A stretch of 64,000 nucleotides of DNA, from NCBI RefSeq assembly GCF_000019965.1, contig NC_010571.1, forward strand, positions 3,605,001-3,669,000, read 5' to 3'. Made by a program: the position numbers and the translations under genes. The notes beneath the pieces were generated by a model that ran no database searches, was not told where the DNA came from, and saw only the letters and a program-made list of their open reading frames with translations. Shown one piece after another: positions 4,803-53,015 of this stretch; position 1 is the first letter of the stretch, and each line of letters opens with the position of its first letter. The DNA comes from Opitutus terrae PB90-1. GTDB lineage: Bacteria; Verrucomicrobiota; Verrucomicrobiia; Opitutales; Opitutaceae.

Positions 4803-4867
4803 CGGCAGGTCTCTGCCTGCCCGCGGGTCGGGGCGCGTTGGCCGGCAGGCAGGGACGCCTGCCGCCA
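4802..4867. repeat. Twin-hairpin palindromic element (loops TCTCT / AGGGA)
   Basis: This lies between the convergent genes pxpA and hisF. Hairpin 1 is GGCAGG (4804-4809), a 6-nt loop, then CCTGCC (4816-4821). Hairpin 2 is GGCAGGC (4844-4850), a 6-nt loop, then GCCTGCC (4857-4863). The loops contain TCTCT and AGGGA, which pair over 5 positions (one T-G wobble). The whole element is also an imperfect inverted repeat. It may act as a bidirectional terminator; it belongs to the element family described in the findings. Confidence 0.75.
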
Positions 4868-4881
4868 CGATGGCTGGCGTA

Positions 4882-9062: not shown

Positions 9063-11012
9063 GTGACAGACCAGACGATTACCTCAGTATCCCGGGAGCA
9101 CCGGTTAATCAGGCCTTCGGCCGAGTTCAAAGCCCAAGCCAACCTTGGGAGCGATGCAACTTACAAAAGGCTCTATGCGGAGTCTGTCAACTCCCCAGAG
9201 GAATTCTGGGGGCGGCAGGCGAAGGAGCATCTGGTCTGGCGCAAACCGTTTAAGAAGGTTCTGCGGTGGTCGCCGCCGCATGCGGAGTGGTTCTTGGGCG
9301 GGAAGTTAAACGTCTCGGAAAACTGTCTCGACCGCCACCTCGGCACTGCGCGCGAGAACAAGGCCGCGCTGATCTTTGAGGGTGAACCCGGCGACGTGCG
9401 GACGATCACGTACAAGCAGCTGCATTTCCACGTCTGCCGACTCGCGCACATTTTCGAGAACATGGGCATCGGCGCCGGCGATCGGGTCGCGATTTACATG
9501 CCGATGATCCCCGAGGCGGTGATGGCGATGCTGGCGTGCGCGCGCGTCGGCGCGATCCACACCGTGGTGTTCGGCGGGTTCAGCCCGGAAGCGCTCAAGG
9601 ACCGGATCAACGACTGCCAGGCGAAGCTCGTGATCACCGCCGACGGCGGCTGGCGGCGCGGCAAGATCGTCGAGCTGAAGGCGAATGTCGACCGCGCCCT
9701 CGAAGGCGCGCCGAGCGTGCAAACCGTCATGGTGGTGAGGCGCTGCGGCAACGAGATCACCATGGTCGACGGTCGCGATGTCTGGTGGAAGGAGGCGTGG
9801 CTCGGCGCGCCGAATACGCATGAGGCGAAGGGCTTCGATGCGGAACATCCGCTGTTCATCCTCTACACCAGCGGCTCGACAGGAAAACCGAAAGGCGTCC
9901 TGCACACCAGCGCGGGCTACCTGCTTGGCTGCAAGTTGAGCTCCCAATACGTTTTCGATCTCAAGGAAAACGACCGCTATTTCTGCTCCGCCGACATCGG
10001 CTGGGTAACCGGCCACAGCTACGTCGTCTACGGGCTGCTCTCCAACGGCGCGACGATCTTCATCTACGAAGGCGCGCCCAATCATCCTGAGCCGGATCGT
10101 TTCTGGCAGATGATCGACCGGCACGGATTGACGATCCTCTACACCGCGCCGACGGCGATCCGCGCGTTCATGCGTTGGGGCGACAACTACGTGCTGCGGC
10201 ACCGGCTCGACTCGCTCCGGCTGCTTGGGTCGGTGGGCGAGCCGATCAATCCGGAAGCGTGGATGTGGTATCACCGGATGATCGGCAAAAAACGGTGTCC
10301 GATCGTCGACACGTGGTGGCAGACCGAAACGGGCGCGATCATGATCGCACCGCTGCCGGGGCTCACTCCGCTGAAACCGGGCTCGGCCACGCGGCCGTTT
10401 TTCGGCGTGGTGGCCAAGGTCGTCGACGAGCGCGGTCGCGAAGTGCCGCGCAACACCGGCGGGAAGTTGGTCATCACCAAACCATGGCCGTCGATGCTTC
10501 GCACGCTCTGGGGCGACGACGAGCGGTACAAGAAGGCGTATTGGAGCGAGATCAAGGACGTGTATTTCACCGGCGACGGCGCGCGCCAGGACGAGGACGG
10601 CTACTTCTGGATCGTCGGCCGGATCGACGACGTGCTCAACGTTTCGGGACACCGCATCGGCACCGCGGAAGTGGAGAGCGCGCTCGTCTCGCATCCGGCG
10701 GTCGCCGAGGCCGCAGCGGTCGGACGGCCCGACGAGTTCAAGGGCCAGGCGCTCGTGGTATTCGTTTGCCTGAAGGCGGGACACACGGCTACGGACCCGC
10801 TCAAGGAGGAACTGCGCAGCCACGTCGCGAAGGAGATCGGTTCGCTGGCGCGGCCTGACGTGATCCGGTTCGCCGCAGCGCTGCCGAAGACGCGCAGCGG
10901 AAAAATCATGCGACGGATCCTCAAGGAGATCGCCACCGGCGGAATCGTGAAAGGCGATACGACGACGCTTGAAGATTTCAGCGTGGTCGCGAGCCTGCAG
11001 GCGGAGGAGTAG
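9063..11012 (+). CDS. acs: Acetyl-CoA synthetase
   Basis: The product is 649 aa from GTG 9063, which gives the usual Acs length and an N-terminus ([20 protein letters not shown]) like other Acs proteins. An alternative GTG at 9021 adds 14 residues and has an AGGTGA four bases upstream, so the start is uncertain. AMP-forming family motifs are clear: the P-loop [12 protein letters not shown], the acetyl-CoA synthetase-specific [21 protein letters not shown], and the C-terminal [11 protein letters not shown] with the lysine that is acetylated in homologues. It converts acetate, ATP and CoA to acetyl-CoA, feeding the same pool as the PDH operon at 26-30 kb. Confidence 0.97.
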
Positions 11013-20798: not shown

Positions 20799-20875
20799 GT
20801 AGGGCCGGCGCTTGCCGCCGGCCGGGCATTGCCACCCGCTTCTACTTCCCGGCTGCCGGTGAACGGCAGCCCTAC
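20799..20875. repeat. GTAGGG...CCCTAC twin-hairpin element
   Basis: The ends are GTAGGGC and GCCCTAC. Hairpin 1 is GGCCGGCG (20803-20810), loop CTTGC, CGCCGGCC. Hairpin 2 is GGCTGCCG (20851-20858), loop GTGAA, CGGCAGCC. Both stems are 8 bp and perfect. The same two loop types recur at 29832-29913 and 52964-53015 on different stems. It lies between the aminotransferase gene and der. Confidence 0.85.
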
Positions 20876-20987: not shown

Positions 20988-22493
20988 ATGAACCGCACCG
21001 TTGCCATCGTCGGCCGACCCAACGTCGGCAAGAGCCGCCTCTTCAACCGGCTGGCGCGGAAGCGCATTTCCATCGTTCACGACCAGCCGGGCGTGACCCG
21101 CGACGTCGTTTCCACCGATATCGCCGACGGCGGCTACACGCTGCTCGACACGGGCGGCATCGGTTATCGCGGCAGCGACACGCCGGCGGCGCTGACCGCC
21201 GCGTCGGAGGAGCAGGTCGAGTTCGCGATCGCGACGGCGGCGCTGATCCTGTTCGTGGTCGACGGACTCGACGGGATCAGCGGGCTGGACGCGAAGATCG
21301 CGGAGCGGCTGCGCAAGAGCGGCAAGCCGGTGCGGCTCGTCGTCAACAAGGCCGATTTCGACGACGAGAAAATCGACCTCGCCGAGGTTTACCGGCTCGG
21401 CCTGGGCGAACCGCTGCGGGTCTCGGCGGAACACGGACGCGGTGAGTCGGAGCTGCGCGCGGCCATCATCGAGGCGCTCGGAACGGCCCCGGAGATCGAA
21501 GAAGCGCGCGATCCGCAGAAGCCACTGGGCGTGTGCTTCATCGGCCGGCCGAACGTCGGCAAGTCGTCGCTCAGCAACCGGCTGCTGCAGAGCGACCGAC
21601 TGATCGTGAGCGAGGTGCCGGGCACGACGCGCGACGCGATCGAGCTGCCCTTCGAGTTCATCGGCCGCGACGGCAAAAGCTATCCGTTCCGGCTGATCGA
21701 TACGGCGGGGATCAAGGCGGCGACGAAGCTGGCCTCGCCGGTGGAGTATTTTTCGCGGCTGCGTTCGCTCGACGCGATCAAGGAGACCGACGTCGTGTTC
21801 CTCGTGCTCGACGCGCTGGAAGGCGTGACGCAGCAGGACAAAGCGATCGCGGGCGAGGCGGTGAAGGAGCACAAGCCGATCGTGCTCGTGGTGAACAAGT
21901 GGGATCTCGTGAAGCGGGCGTTCAAGGAGCGCGGCGCGTTCGAGCCCTACAAGAGCGAGCGCGACTATCGCGAAAAATACGAGAAGGCGCTCTTCGACCG
22001 GCTGTATTTCACGCCGGGGTCGCCGGTAATCTTCGTCTCGGCGGTGAGCGGCTACGAAGTCGACCGGATGCTCAACGCGGCCGTGAAGGTGAACCGGATG
22101 ATGGACGCGAAGCTGCCGACGGCGAAGCTCAACCGCGCGATCGAGTTCCTCACCGAGCGCACGCCGCCGCCGGCGATCGGCGGCAAGCGATTCCGCGTCT
22201 ACTACGCCACGCAGACCGGCAACCGGCCGTTCCGAATCCGGCTGTTCTGCAATCGCGAGGAACAGTTGAGCGAGCAGTATCGCCGGTATCTCGAGGCGGG
22301 GCTGGTCGACGAATTCGGGCTCGCGGGCTGTCCGATCTACTTCGATCTGGTGGGCAAGCCGAAGCACGAGCCGGGCACGTCGTTCTCGGCCATGCGCGAG
22401 GCGCAGGAGCAATTGCGACAGAAGAAACCTGCGGCGAAATGGCGGGCGGCGGAACAGTCCGAGGAACCCTCTCATGAAACTCTCGAAGATTGA
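20988..22493 (+). CDS. der: Ribosome biogenesis GTPase Der (EngA)
   Basis: The product is 501 aa. It has the double GTPase architecture unique to Der: G domain 1 with GRPNVGKS at residues 9-16, DTGG and NKAD; G domain 2 with a second GRPNVGKS near 185, PGTTRD, DTAG and NKWD; and a KH-like C-terminal domain (VNRMMDAKLPTAKLNRA, then YYATQTGNRPFRIRLFCN). It is needed for 50S subunit maturation. The C-terminal tail (about 475-501) is charged and longer than the E. coli protein. The 3' end overlaps the next gene by 20 bases. Confidence 0.98.
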   Translation: MNRTVAIVGRPNVGKSRLFNRLARKRISIVHDQPGVTRDVVSTDIADGGYTLLDTGGIGYRGSDTPAALTAASEEQVEFAIATAALILFVVDGLDGISGLDAKIAERLRKSGKPVRLVVNKADFDDEKIDLAEVYRLGLGEPLRVSAEHGRGESELRAAIIEALGTAPEIEEARDPQKPLGVCFIGRPNVGKSSLSNRLLQSDRLIVSEVPGTTRDAIELPFEFIGRDGKSYPFRLIDTAGIKAATKLASPVEYFSRLRSLDAIKETDVVFLVLDALEGVTQQDKAIAGEAVKEHKPIVLVVNKWDLVKRAFKERGAFEPYKSERDYREKYEKALFDRLYFTPGSPVIFVSAVSGYEVDRMLNAAVKVNRMMDAKLPTAKLNRAIEFLTERTPPPAIGGKRFRVYYATQTGNRPFRIRLFCNREEQLSEQYRRYLEAGLVDEFGLAGCPIYFDLVGKPKHEPGTSFSAMREAQEQLRQKKPAAKWRAAEQSEEPSHETLED

Positions 22494-23385
22494 TTACCGC
22501 GGTGGCGATGCGCTGCTGCTCGCGTCGCGCGCGCTCGAACTGGTGGCAACGACGGCGGTGGGACCGCGGGTCATCTCACTGCGCTCGTTTGCCGGCAAAA
22601 AGCGGAACCTGTTCATCGAGCTGCCCAACGCGCCGCGACTGCACGGCTACGCCTTGCGCGGTGGCCATCGGCTCTGGCATTCGCCCGAGCACATCGTCCG
22701 CACGTATCAGCCCGACGACTCGCCGCTCGAGATCAAGCCGCTGCCGAAAGGCGTGGCGCTGACGCAGCCGATGGAGGTCAAGACCGGGCTGGTGAAGGGA
22801 ATGAGGCTTGAGCTCCTCGGAGAGCGGACGATCAAGGTGACGCACACGCTGACCAACCGCGGAGTGTGGGCGGTGGAGTGCGCGCCGTGGGCGTTGACGA
22901 TGCTGCGGCCGGGCGGCTATGGCGTGTTGCCGCTGCTGCCGAAGGGCAATCACGCCGACGGCGATCTGCTGCCGAACGCGACGCTGATTCCCTGGACCTA
23001 CACGGACCTGTCGCAGCCGGTGTGGGAGCTGCATCGGGATTTCATCGGGATTAACGTGGCGAAGGCGACCGAGCCCCAGAAGCTCGGCATCTCGAATTAT
23101 CCCGGCTGGTCCGCCTACTGGAACGAAGGCGCGACGTTCGTGAAATATGCGCCCGTGGTGCCGGGCGCCACGTATCCGGATCTGGGCTGTGCCTTCGAGA
23201 CGTTCACGAACGGCGAGATGATCGAGTTTGAAACGCTAGGTGTGTTCGGTCCGCTCGCCCCGGGCAAGACGATGACGCATGTCGAACACTGGACGGTGCT
23301 GGACGGACTCGTGCGGCCGAACACCGACGCGGCGTTTGCGAAGCTCGCGGCCGCGGTGAAACTGTGGGTGCGAAGTCTGAGGTAG
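22474..23385 (+). CDS. Galactose mutarotase-like (aldose epimerase fold) hypothetical protein
   Basis: The product is 303 aa, cytoplasmic, with no signal peptide. The beta-rich sequence with ATTAVGPRVISLRSFAGKKRNLF, GHRLWHSPE, THTLTNRGVWAVECAPWALTML and EHWTVL fits a galactose mutarotase-like supersandwich (DUF4380-type proteins have this pattern). The GHRLWHSPE and THTLTN motifs probably frame a sugar site, but catalytic His/Glu cannot be assigned with certainty. It starts 20 bases inside der and is in a different frame, so the pair is co-transcribed. A twin-hairpin repeat follows its stop. Confidence 0.8.
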   Translation: MKLSKIDYRGGDALLLASRALELVATTAVGPRVISLRSFAGKKRNLFIELPNAPRLHGYALRGGHRLWHSPEHIVRTYQPDDSPLEIKPLPKGVALTQPMEVKTGLVKGMRLELLGERTIKVTHTLTNRGVWAVECAPWALTMLRPGGYGVLPLLPKGNHADGDLLPNATLIPWTYTDLSQPVWELHRDFIGINVAKATEPQKLGISNYPGWSAYWNEGATFVKYAPVVPGATYPDLGCAFETFTNGEMIEFETLGVFGPLAPGKTMTHVEHWTVLDGLVRPNTDAAFAKLAAAVKLWVRSLR

Positions 23386-23452
23386 GGCGCGGACTCCGCT
23401 CCGCGCCGTGACCCGTCGACGCGCGCGGCGGTGAACGGAGTCACCGCCCTAC
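23382..23452. repeat. GTAGGG...CCCTAC twin-hairpin element with 5-nt complementary loops
   Basis: Hairpin 1 is GGCGCGGA (23386-23393), loop CTCCGC, TCCGCGCC. Hairpin 2 is GGCGGTGA (23427-23434), loop ACGGAG, TCACCGCC (to 23448). Both are perfect 8-bp stems. Loop segments CTCCG and CGGAG are exact reverse complements. The element starts within the last four bases of the mutarotase-like gene, supplying its TAG stop, and ends 11 bases before fmt. Confidence 0.85.
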
Positions 23453-23463
23453 GATCCCAACCC

Positions 23464-24477
23464 ATGCCACCGCTCCGGATTGTTTTTCTCGGTTCTGATC
23501 CGATCGCGCTGCCACTGCTGGAGTGGCTGGCGGGCGAGGGGCGCGCGATCGGCGAGATCGTCGTGGTGTTCACCCAGCCCGACCGTGCGGCCGGTCGCGG
23601 CCAGAAAATCACGCCGAACGCGATCAAGACCTGGGCGCTGGCGCGTGGGATTCCCGTGCTGCAGCCGGAGAAAGTGACCGACGAGGTCCGCACGCAGCTC
23701 GCTGGCTTCGCGCCTGACGTCTCGCTGGTCATGGCCTACGGGCACATCCTGCGCGACGAGTTCATCAGCACGCCGCGGCTCGGAACGCTGAACCTGCACA
23801 CGTCGATCCTCCCCAAGTATCGCGGCGCGTCGCCGATCCAGACGGCGGTGGCGAGTGGCGACCGCCAGACGGGCGTCACGCTGATGCGGATGGTCCGAAA
23901 ACTCGACGCGGGTCCCATCGGCGACGTGGAGCGCGTGGCCATCGAGCTGGACGACACTGCGCTCGACGTGGAGGCGAAGCTCGCGGCGGCCTGCGTGCCG
24001 CTGCTGCAACGAGCACTGCCGCGCCTGCGCGATGGCACGCTGGCGTTCGCGGCGCAGGATGACTCGGCGGCGAGTTATTGCCGCAAACTCGCGAAGGAGG
24101 ATGGGGTGCTGGATTTCGCGATGTCGGCAGACGTTCTCGCGGCGCGGATCAACGGACTCTTCCCTTGGCCGGCCTGCTCCGTGGAGATTGCCCGGCAGCC
24201 AGTGAAATTCGGCGCGGCGACGGCGCGCGATCTCCCGCCTTCGGCCGTGGGCCGCGGCAAGCCGCCCGGCGAAGTGCTCGGCGCGGACACCGAGGGGCTG
24301 CTGATCTCGACCGGCGAGGGCGCGCTGTGCGTGCGACGGATGCAGCGGCCGGGCGGTCGAATGCTGCCGACGGCGGAGTTTTTGCGCGGCTTTCCCATTG
24401 CGGTCGGCATGCGGTTGCCTTCAGGGCCGATGCCGCCGCTGATCTCGGATGCGCCGTTTCCGCGACCGGCGCGGTAG
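23464..24477 (+). CDS. fmt: Methionyl-tRNA formyltransferase
   Basis: The product is 337 aa. ATG 23464 is chosen because the protein then begins MPPLRIVFLGSDPIALPLLE, the normal Fmt start; an upstream start at 23431 would lie inside a palindromic repeat. The formyl-transferase domain carries NLHTSILPKYRGASPIQTAV (Asn-x-His catalytic motif and SLLP-like signature), then GVTLMRMVRKLDAGPIG. The C-terminal tRNA-binding OB domain begins near residue 205. It formylates initiator Met-tRNA with 10-formyl-THF. No def gene is adjacent. Confidence 0.97.
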   Translation: MPPLRIVFLGSDPIALPLLEWLAGEGRAIGEIVVVFTQPDRAAGRGQKITPNAIKTWALARGIPVLQPEKVTDEVRTQLAGFAPDVSLVMAYGHILRDEFISTPRLGTLNLHTSILPKYRGASPIQTAVASGDRQTGVTLMRMVRKLDAGPIGDVERVAIELDDTALDVEAKLAAACVPLLQRALPRLRDGTLAFAAQDDSAASYCRKLAKEDGVLDFAMSADVLAARINGLFPWPACSVEIARQPVKFGAATARDLPPSAVGRGKPPGEVLGADTEGLLISTGEGALCVRRMQRPGGRMLPTAEFLRGFPIAVGMRLPSGPMPPLISDAPFPRPAR

Positions 24478-26090: not shown

Positions 26091-26137
26091 GTAGCCGGCC
26101 TCGGTGAGGCCGGGCCGGGGTCATCGACCCCGGCTAC
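26091..26137. repeat. GTAGCCGG...CCGGCTAC twin-hairpin element
   Basis: Hairpin 1 is GGCCTC (26097-26102), loop GGT, GAGGCC. Hairpin 2 is GCCGGGGTC (26114-26122), loop ATC, GACCCCGGC (to 26134). The outer ends GTAGCCGG and CCGGCTAC are inverted. A near-identical copy lies at 50981-51029. It is located between the convergent parB and pdhC genes. Confidence 0.8.
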
Positions 26138-29831: not shown

Positions 29832-29913
29832 GTAGGGCCGGCGCTGGCCGCCGGCCGCGAGCGTGTTCGCGGGCTCGCCTTCATTCTCGGCCGCCGGTGA
29901 ACGGCGGCCCTAC
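29832..29913. repeat. GTAGGG...CCCTAC twin-hairpin element
   Basis: Hairpin 1 is GGCCGGCG (29836-29843), loop CTGGC, CGCCGGCC. Hairpin 2 is GGCCGCCG (29889-29896), loop GTGAA, CGGCGGCC (to 29909). The ends are GTAGGG and CCCTAC. It is located between the Nudix gene and pdhA, both on the minus strand. Confidence 0.85.
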
Positions 29914-36774: not shown

Positions 36775-36800
36775 CGGCTGCCGGCCAGCGGCAGCCCTAC
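36775..36800. repeat. Half copy of the GTAGGG/CCCTAC element
   Basis: GGCTGCCG (36776-36783), loop GCCAG, CGGCAGCC (36789-36796), then CTAC. This equals the right half of the 20799-20875 element. No matching left half is evident. It lies in the gap between the secretin gene and the convergent sensor kinase gene. Confidence 0.6.
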
Positions 36801-50980: not shown

Positions 50981-51029
50981 GTAGCCGGCCTCGCTGAGGC
51001 CGACAGCCGGGGTCAACGACCCCGGCTAC
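50981..51029. repeat. GTAGCCGG...CCGGCTAC twin-hairpin element
   Basis: Hairpin 1 is GGCCTC (50987-50992), loop GCT, GAGGCC. Hairpin 2 is GCCGGGGTC (51006-51014), loop AAC, GACCCCGGC (to 51026). It is a near copy of 26091-26137 with different loops. It directly follows the AGGG/CCCT element. Confidence 0.85.
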
Positions 51030-52963: not shown

Positions 52964-53015
52964 GTAGGGCTGCCGCTTGTCGGCAGCCGCGGCCGGCGGT
53001 GAACGCCGGCCCTAC
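52964..53015. repeat. GTAGGG...CCCTAC twin-hairpin element, compact
   Basis: Hairpin 1 is GGCTGCCG (52968-52975), loop CTTGT, CGGCAGCC. Hairpin 2 is GGCCGGCG (52991-52998), loop GTGAA, CGCCGGCC (to 53011). Compared with 20799-20875, the stems are swapped between the two hairpins while the loop types keep their order. It lies between rpsA and its terminator. Confidence 0.85.

Follow-up and report, generated by a model that had tools for sequence, protein, structure and literature searches.

REP and RAYT systems described so far

REPs of Opitutus terrae, head-to-head pairs included, have already been reported (Di Nocera 2013, PMC3733652). The GTAG families described there agree with those considered below in head and stems, and they too form head-to-head dimers as well as heterodimers, several families being present in the one genome. 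That study identified REPtrons, in which REPs of the same class flank the gene for a REP-associated tyrosine transposase (RAYT), for most of the species shown in its Figure 1, so the RAYT loci of O. terrae described below may already be listed in it. Among the papers found on REPs, REPINs and RAYTs, it alone treats REPs in O. terrae. The frequency of unlike REP pairs is stated there to have no obvious explanation, and E. coli REP dimers have unlike partners as well (PMC3733652). The E. coli transposase TnpArep (PDB 4er8) is homologous to the family I RAYT of O. terrae (E 9.6e-9), with the same GTAG head. The E. coli REP stem is bulged (PMC8266576), whereas the stems of the element described here are perfect.

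The REPINs of Pseudomonas fluorescens likewise consist of two inverted REPs with a spacer and are linked to a RAYT (Bertels and Rainey 2011, PMC3116915), but their stems and loops are unlike those of O. terrae family I. Long-hairpin and clover folds have been proposed for them, and the legend of Figure S11 of that paper suggests that recognition concerns the clover form and is unlikely for the long form. The stem adjoins GTAG directly in O. terrae, whereas in REPs of fluorescent pseudomonads two or three extra bases intervene (PMC3686654). Stenotrophomonas REPs, as in O. terrae, have a GTAG that leads directly into a perfect, short-looped palindrome of 8-9 bp (PMC8266576, PMC3686654), but they belong to another phylum, and the REP tested there has the loop GCT instead of the nTCCnn of family I (PMC8266576). 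In vitro, recognition by the Stenotrophomonas enzyme depends on head, loop and hairpin shape: one base of the loop is critical, the inverse strand is unbound, and stem mismatches are harmful while complementary changes are milder (Corneloup 2021, PMC8266576). In pseudomonads and stenotrophomonads, orthologous RAYTs occur with differing REPs, and some REPs have no cognate RAYT (Nunvar 2013, PMC3686654); the group 3 TnpA-REP of Stenotrophomonas likewise comprises orthologous RAYTs with differing flanking REPs.

Anatomy of the element

The element at 23382-23452 is a head-to-head pair of GTAG-tagged REPs, i.e. a REPIN, composed of two REPs of the same class in inverted orientation, separated by a spacer and with their GTAG heads pointing outward (Table 1). 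Direct reading gives GTAG-GGCGCGGA-CTCCGC-TCCGCGCC for the left arm (23382-23407) and GGCGGTGA-ACGGAG-TCACCGCC-CTAC for the right arm (23427-23452), with 8/8 pairing in each stem. The top-strand loops CTCCGC and ACGGAG share the exact 5-nt complement CTCCG/CGGAG. The two perfect 8-bp hairpins and the loop complement given in the initial annotation thus hold letter for letter. So does its statement that the element provides the upstream stop codon: the element is placed right where the upstream gene ends, and ORF 22474-23385 therefore ends in the TAG of the left head. This ORF scores 203.9 bits against the TTE1925 profile, below the cut-off of 550. An Rfam scan of the window, i.e. the whole 64-kb stretch of DNA analysed, gave no match at gathering score.

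The element had also been considered much more ordered than a simple REP, a view that does not survive, as it is an ordinary REP doublet. Its REP nature is supported by the GTAG head at the 5' side of the palindrome and by high copy number. The kind of REP is one already reported in O. terrae and the element belongs to the RAYT-REP system, a placement that removes its apparent oddity.

Table 1. Features of the element, its neighbours, other REP pairs of the window, and the main REP families
Feature	Positions	Strand	Description
Whole element	23382..23452	.	71-base head-to-head pair of family I REPs (REPIN)
Left REP	23382..23407	+	GTAG head 23382-23385; stem 23386-23393/23400-23407; loop CTCCGC 23394-23399
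Spacer between both REPs	23408..23426	.	19 nt
Right REP, inverted	23427..23452	-	head CTAC 23449-23452; stem 23427-23434/23441-23448; own-strand loop CTCCGT
Upstream gene	22474..23385	+	mutarotase-like, TTE1925 family; stop TAG in left REP head
Downstream gene fmt	23464..24477	+	methionyl-tRNA formyltransferase-like; Formyl_trans_N and _C
Family II REP pair	20799..20875	.	
Family III REP pair	26091..26137	.	GTAG CCGnnnTC, 1-nt spacer
Family II REP pair	29832..29913	.	
Family II REP pair	52964..53015	.	
Family I			GTAG head, stem GGCGnnnn, loop nTCCnn; includes 23382-23452
Family II			GTAG head, stem GGCyGsCG, loop YTnnC
Family III			GTAG head, stem CCGnnnTC, loop Gnn
Family IV			GTGG head, stem CAyGGGCr, loop TCy

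REP families in the genome and the window

The source genome is a single contig of 5,957,605 bases. An untargeted sample of 1,984,000 bases, made up of 96 stretches chosen regardless of REPs and of the window, contains 84 head-to-head pairs. Both arms belong to the same family in 70 of these, and the remaining 14, with arms of differing family, include chance pairs. Families were separated by head, stem and loop, and smaller ones exist beside families I-IV. GTAG hairpins are more abundant than expected by chance: before perfect 8-bp hairpins in 784 kb, GTAG is the most frequent 5' tetramer of 256 (84 cases; GTGG 33, CGCG 26), and a single random sequence of equal length from an order-1 Markov model gave 0 such cases. 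The pattern GTAGGGC-N35-65-GCCCTAC occurs at 70 places genome-wide, compared with 7 for a reversed-pattern control.

The pairs at 20799, 23382, 29832 and 52964 had been taken as copies of one element. They represent two families, 23382 belonging to family I and the other three to family II, which has its own RAYT, and a MAFFT alignment of them is not sensible. A covariance model of the four copies was therefore set aside, and the model was built from family I arms instead. At E 0.01 or better it matched at least 124 places in its own genome (150 of 12,426 candidates were scored, which makes the count a minimum, and E-values are rough), so that the scarcity of copies that would have spoken against the initial annotation did not appear. 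In eight other genomes there were 2 to 149 matches, again with rough E-values. The model had no match in G001, the other genome of the same genus, and no GTAGGGC pair was present there, though the der-mutarotase-fmt order is kept. Single REPs of families II, III and VII (the last with a GTGG head) lie in the window at 36776-36800, 51007-51029 and 4843-4868, respectively.

Like GTAG-type REPs in general, the pairs are high in copy number and mostly extragenic. By crude gene calls, 40 of the 58 well-scored pairs of all families in the sample are intergenic, 17 fall within gene calls and 1 is at an edge; the TAG of a head serves as the stop codon of a neighbouring gene in four of them, the present element included.

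Compensatory changes in the stems

Stem pairing was assessed at places chosen solely for a GTAGGGC that has a GCC at the distance of a hairpin, taking the best of loop lengths 4-6. All five inner pairs were present in 67 of the 116 places of the sample, with 13 distinct inner stems, while five other tetranucleotides before GGC, with an unchanged tail, gave five inner pairs in 0 of 44, 30, 16, 91 and 76 places. For GTAGCCG...CGG, inner pairing was found in 3/60 places versus 1/154 for the control GATGCCG, a test whose 4-6 range excludes the 3-nt loop of family III. Ten chosen family I arms had 80/80 cells paired and a covariation score of 0.583, compared with 0.134 for shuffled and at most 0.097 for slid structures; these arms were preselected as hairpins, which makes the 116-place test the fairer one. 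In family I, head and TCC loop are fixed and the stems vary with compensation. The compensatory stem changes for which the initial annotation had proposed to look are thus present. The in vitro results from Stenotrophomonas fit this combination of a conserved loop with varied stems.

RAYT genes of O. terrae

PF01797 matched four genes of the O. terrae genome, three of them above the cut-off. The RAYT at L041 is flanked on both sides by family II REPs and that at L042 by family III REPs. PF01797 alone had indicated that the genome lacks a family I RAYT. This was overturned by a profile of the RAYTs from two relatives, G031 and G003, which located L242 (G000:C1:5903670-5904149) with an E-value of 1.1e-63; L242 scores 19.7 with PF01797, below the cut-off of 23. 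It is flanked on both sides by GTAG-GGCGCGTTA-tcct-TAACGCGCC, and the RAYT-type transposase gene sought for the element is thereby found, bracketed by family I REPs. These REPs belong to subfamily CGTT, whereas the element belongs to subfamily CGGA; no CGGA-bracketed RAYT was seen in the own genome, and among the loci examined only G080 has one (L283). The L242 protein contains a PDHLH (HUH) motif and reaches 94.6 bits with NF047646 (REP_Tyr_transpos; cut-off 80), a cut-off that the L041 and L042 proteins exceed as well. Its sole PDB match at E 1 is 4er8. The RAYTs have a conserved Y before an NP motif, a putative catalytic tyrosine.

L242 is located between mreB and mreC, and a homologous RAYT with REP occupies the same place in G031, G128 and G145, so that these loci (L242, L260, L262 and L278) span four genomes of three genera; at the G145 locus one REP was found, which is degenerate. 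This suggests inheritance of the RAYT with its REPs at a constant position beside cell-shape genes.

The stop codon of the RAYT gene coincides with the TAG of the adjacent REP head at L041 (9701-9704), L220 (1720-1723), L222 (2033-2036) and L225 (2191-2194). A perfect palindrome at L042 15693-15730, GTAGCCATTTTCACGT...ACGTGAAAATGGCTAC, is richer in AT and unlike the other families; GTAG stands at both of its ends. The other two genes matched by PF01797, Y1 transposase genes at L040 8025-8957 and L043 ~10072-10607, the latter with a broken reading frame, are flanked by inverted repeats of ~23 nt (by eye) that are not REPs.

RAYT-REP loci in Opitutaceae

At E 1e-35, RAYTs of the family I clade were detected in 60 of the 150 genomes from Opitutaceae. 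The 48 best-scoring loci among the profile matches were examined; one without a RAYT by tblastn, two duplicates and ten other clades or fragments were removed, leaving 35. A GTAGGG hairpin lies within 250 bp on both sides of 31 of these RAYTs and on at least one side of all 35, while seven control heads gave 0/35 for both sides and 0-2/35 for either side. The presence of such hairpins in other Opitutaceae, raised in the initial annotation, is thus supported at every RAYT locus retained. Among the loci set aside, the REPs at L247, L255 and L256 are those of a different family, and no GTAG REP was found near L248, L249, L250, L257, L258 or L246 and L259, the last two being pieces of one broken gene in G028.

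REPs and RAYTs diverge together. Stem distance tracks RAYT distance with a rho of 0.19 (Mantel 4 of 2000), and loop distance does so with a rho of 0.21 (3 of 2000). The stems of RAYTs that share more than 58% identity are unlike at 0.96 of 8 positions (n=49), and those of RAYTs sharing less than 50% at 3.25 (n=370); pairs between 50% and 58% enter the correlation only. At L283 of G080, which belongs to another genus, one flank is an exact 26-mer of the left arm, 23382-23407, and the other is the same 26-mer with one loop base changed. A RAYT bracketed by subfamily CGGA is thus present in another genus and none was seen here, and the REPtron arrangement exists for subfamily CGTT at L242 and for CGGA at L283. 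With their diverged and mostly compensated stems, these 35 related RAYT loci of a single bacterial family constitute a natural data set that bears on how a single-strand transposase and its hairpin shift specificity together.

L241 and L263, in G003 and G119 of two genera, contain a related RAYT in a locus with leuS; the REPs there have a stem with a GA mismatch and a TCC-like loop.

The der-mutarotase-fmt site and the origin of the element

A search of 20 relatives located the upstream gene in eight, and the der-mutarotase-fmt order is kept in all eight. None of the eight carries the element at the site, and its arms occur nowhere in the fetched loci. Seven have a spacer without the element; in G024, a different GTAG REP pair, one head of which is degenerate, lies further along the locus. 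The mutarotase-like proteins of the relatives end near the same residue, each with its own stop codon. The absence in relatives could also reflect loss.

The element is most probably (about 0.87) a REPIN in the sense of a non-autonomous mobile repeat whose hairpins are the substrate of a RAYT. Its single-stranded hairpins, with GTAG head, paired stem and conserved TCC loop, would be bound and cut by the RAYT, and the copy at 23382-23452 would have arrived by RAYT action. An enzyme that recognises head, loop and hairpin shape would account for fixed loops and varied stems. What is directly observed comprises the anatomy, the copy number, the compensated stems, the REP-bracketed RAYTs, the co-divergence and the absence from the site in relatives. 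For transposition by a RAYT, one of the functions proposed in the initial annotation, the supported part is the presence of REP-bracketed RAYT genes. The mismatch between subfamily CGTT around the own family I RAYT and subfamily CGGA of the element counts against this reading, and no target-site signature was established.

Unlike arms and alternative folds

The two arms of a pair differ in a regular manner. Among 119 distinct pairs from the sample and targeted places, a C/G swap between the arms occurs at stem position 6 in 23/23 pairs of family II and 23/23 of family III, and at stem position 5 in 29/33 of family I, where one further pair has A/C; random pairing would give a C/G difference in about half of the pairs. 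In the untargeted sample alone, the arms differ at that position in 13/13 (II), 18/18 (III) and 18/18 (I) pairs. No C/G arm rule applies to the 12 pairs of family IV. The passages available from the REP, REPIN and RAYT papers found describe no fixed C/G stem position. The rule offers a concrete handle on the question of why REP pairs are often unlike.

The fixed C/G difference may be selected, poising the pair between a long hairpin that is silent and a twin hairpin competent for the RAYT, a rather unlikely proposal that the excess over random pairing nevertheless favours. Fold energies, calculated with DNA parameters as the long form minus the best form without pairing between arms, average +1.2 (I), +0.5 (II) and +4.3 kcal/mol (III) for the top strand. 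Differing arms therefore bring the long and twin folds close in energy in these three families, whereas giving both arms the same sequence tips the balance towards the long form by 18.7, 17.5 and 11.0 kcal/mol, respectively. When arms were re-dealt, the mean fell to -4.7 (II) and -0.2 (III), again in line with selection, but it was unchanged in family I (1.13 vs 1.17). For the element itself, the long form is the more stable one by 3.1 (top strand) and 5.0 kcal/mol (bottom strand), and natural pairs of families IV, VI and VIII favour it by 2-6 kcal/mol, which argues against a poised fold, as does the lack of the rule in family IV.

The relatives give a divided picture. Among 36 pairs (40 minus four dropped for a GTGG head or unlike first two bases), 23 from 13 genomes have a C/G difference at some position of the stem, which favours the fold-switch proposal, whereas seven have identical arms, which does not; six are of other kinds. 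These counts come from a hairpin scorer that under-counts families with GA mismatches in the stem. Listings read by eye show that identical-arm pairs are frequent in G003, G016 and G029 and present in G027. They rule out a universal rule of unlike arms and contradict a general purging of long palindromes. Moreover, the copies share ancestry, so that descent from an unlike founder could explain the C/G rule. The broader reading, in which C/G-unlike arms are a built-in transposition brake maintained in some families as stems and RAYTs radiate through Opitutaceae, is about as unlikely.

Action at the RNA level and complementary loops

The hairpins might instead act in RNA, terminating transcription or protecting the upstream mRNA from its 3' end. 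This explanation of the element is improbable, even though the RNA fold is stable (z -4.41) and, by crude gene calls, the 40 intergenic pairs comprise 22 tandem, 15 convergent and only three divergent cases, with divergent gaps making up ~20% of intergenic bases. No T run follows the GC hairpin at 23382-23452, so that the site is not like an intrinsic terminator and the termination role suggested earlier is not supported. In addition, the copy at der-mutarotase-fmt is not common to the relatives, and RNA stability requires neither a conserved GTAG head nor a strand-specific loop. The mobile-repeat reading accommodates both head and loop as putative features of the RAYT substrate.

When each arm is read from its own GTAG, the loops of the element are near-identical, CTCCGC and CTCCGT; their complementarity arises because the same REP is placed twice in inverted orientation. 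Loop match between partners of family I is 3.91, compared with 3.51 after re-dealing within the family (P 0.0065) and about 2.1 for random 6-mers. There is no excess in family II (2.30 vs 2.63) or in family III with its 3-nt loops (1.43 vs 1.61). A device in which both hairpins form together and lock through CTCCG/CGGAG, with selection preserving the complementarity, is thus very improbable: the exact 5-nt complement and the family I excess speak for it, but the presence of the family loop in both arms makes complementarity automatic, and families II and III lack any excess. The loop complementarity of the initial annotation is accordingly a by-product of the inverted arrangement, and kissing loops as a design are not supported. 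Its own reservation, that the complementarity may be no greater than the inverted repeat gives, is in essence borne out by families II and III, and fails for family I to the extent of a small excess, which would be expected if subfamilies spread as pairs.

Spacer lengths between paired REPs cluster near 2, 21-22 and 31-32 nt. These clusters may correspond to steps of about one helical turn, and shared ancestry of the copies could account for them.
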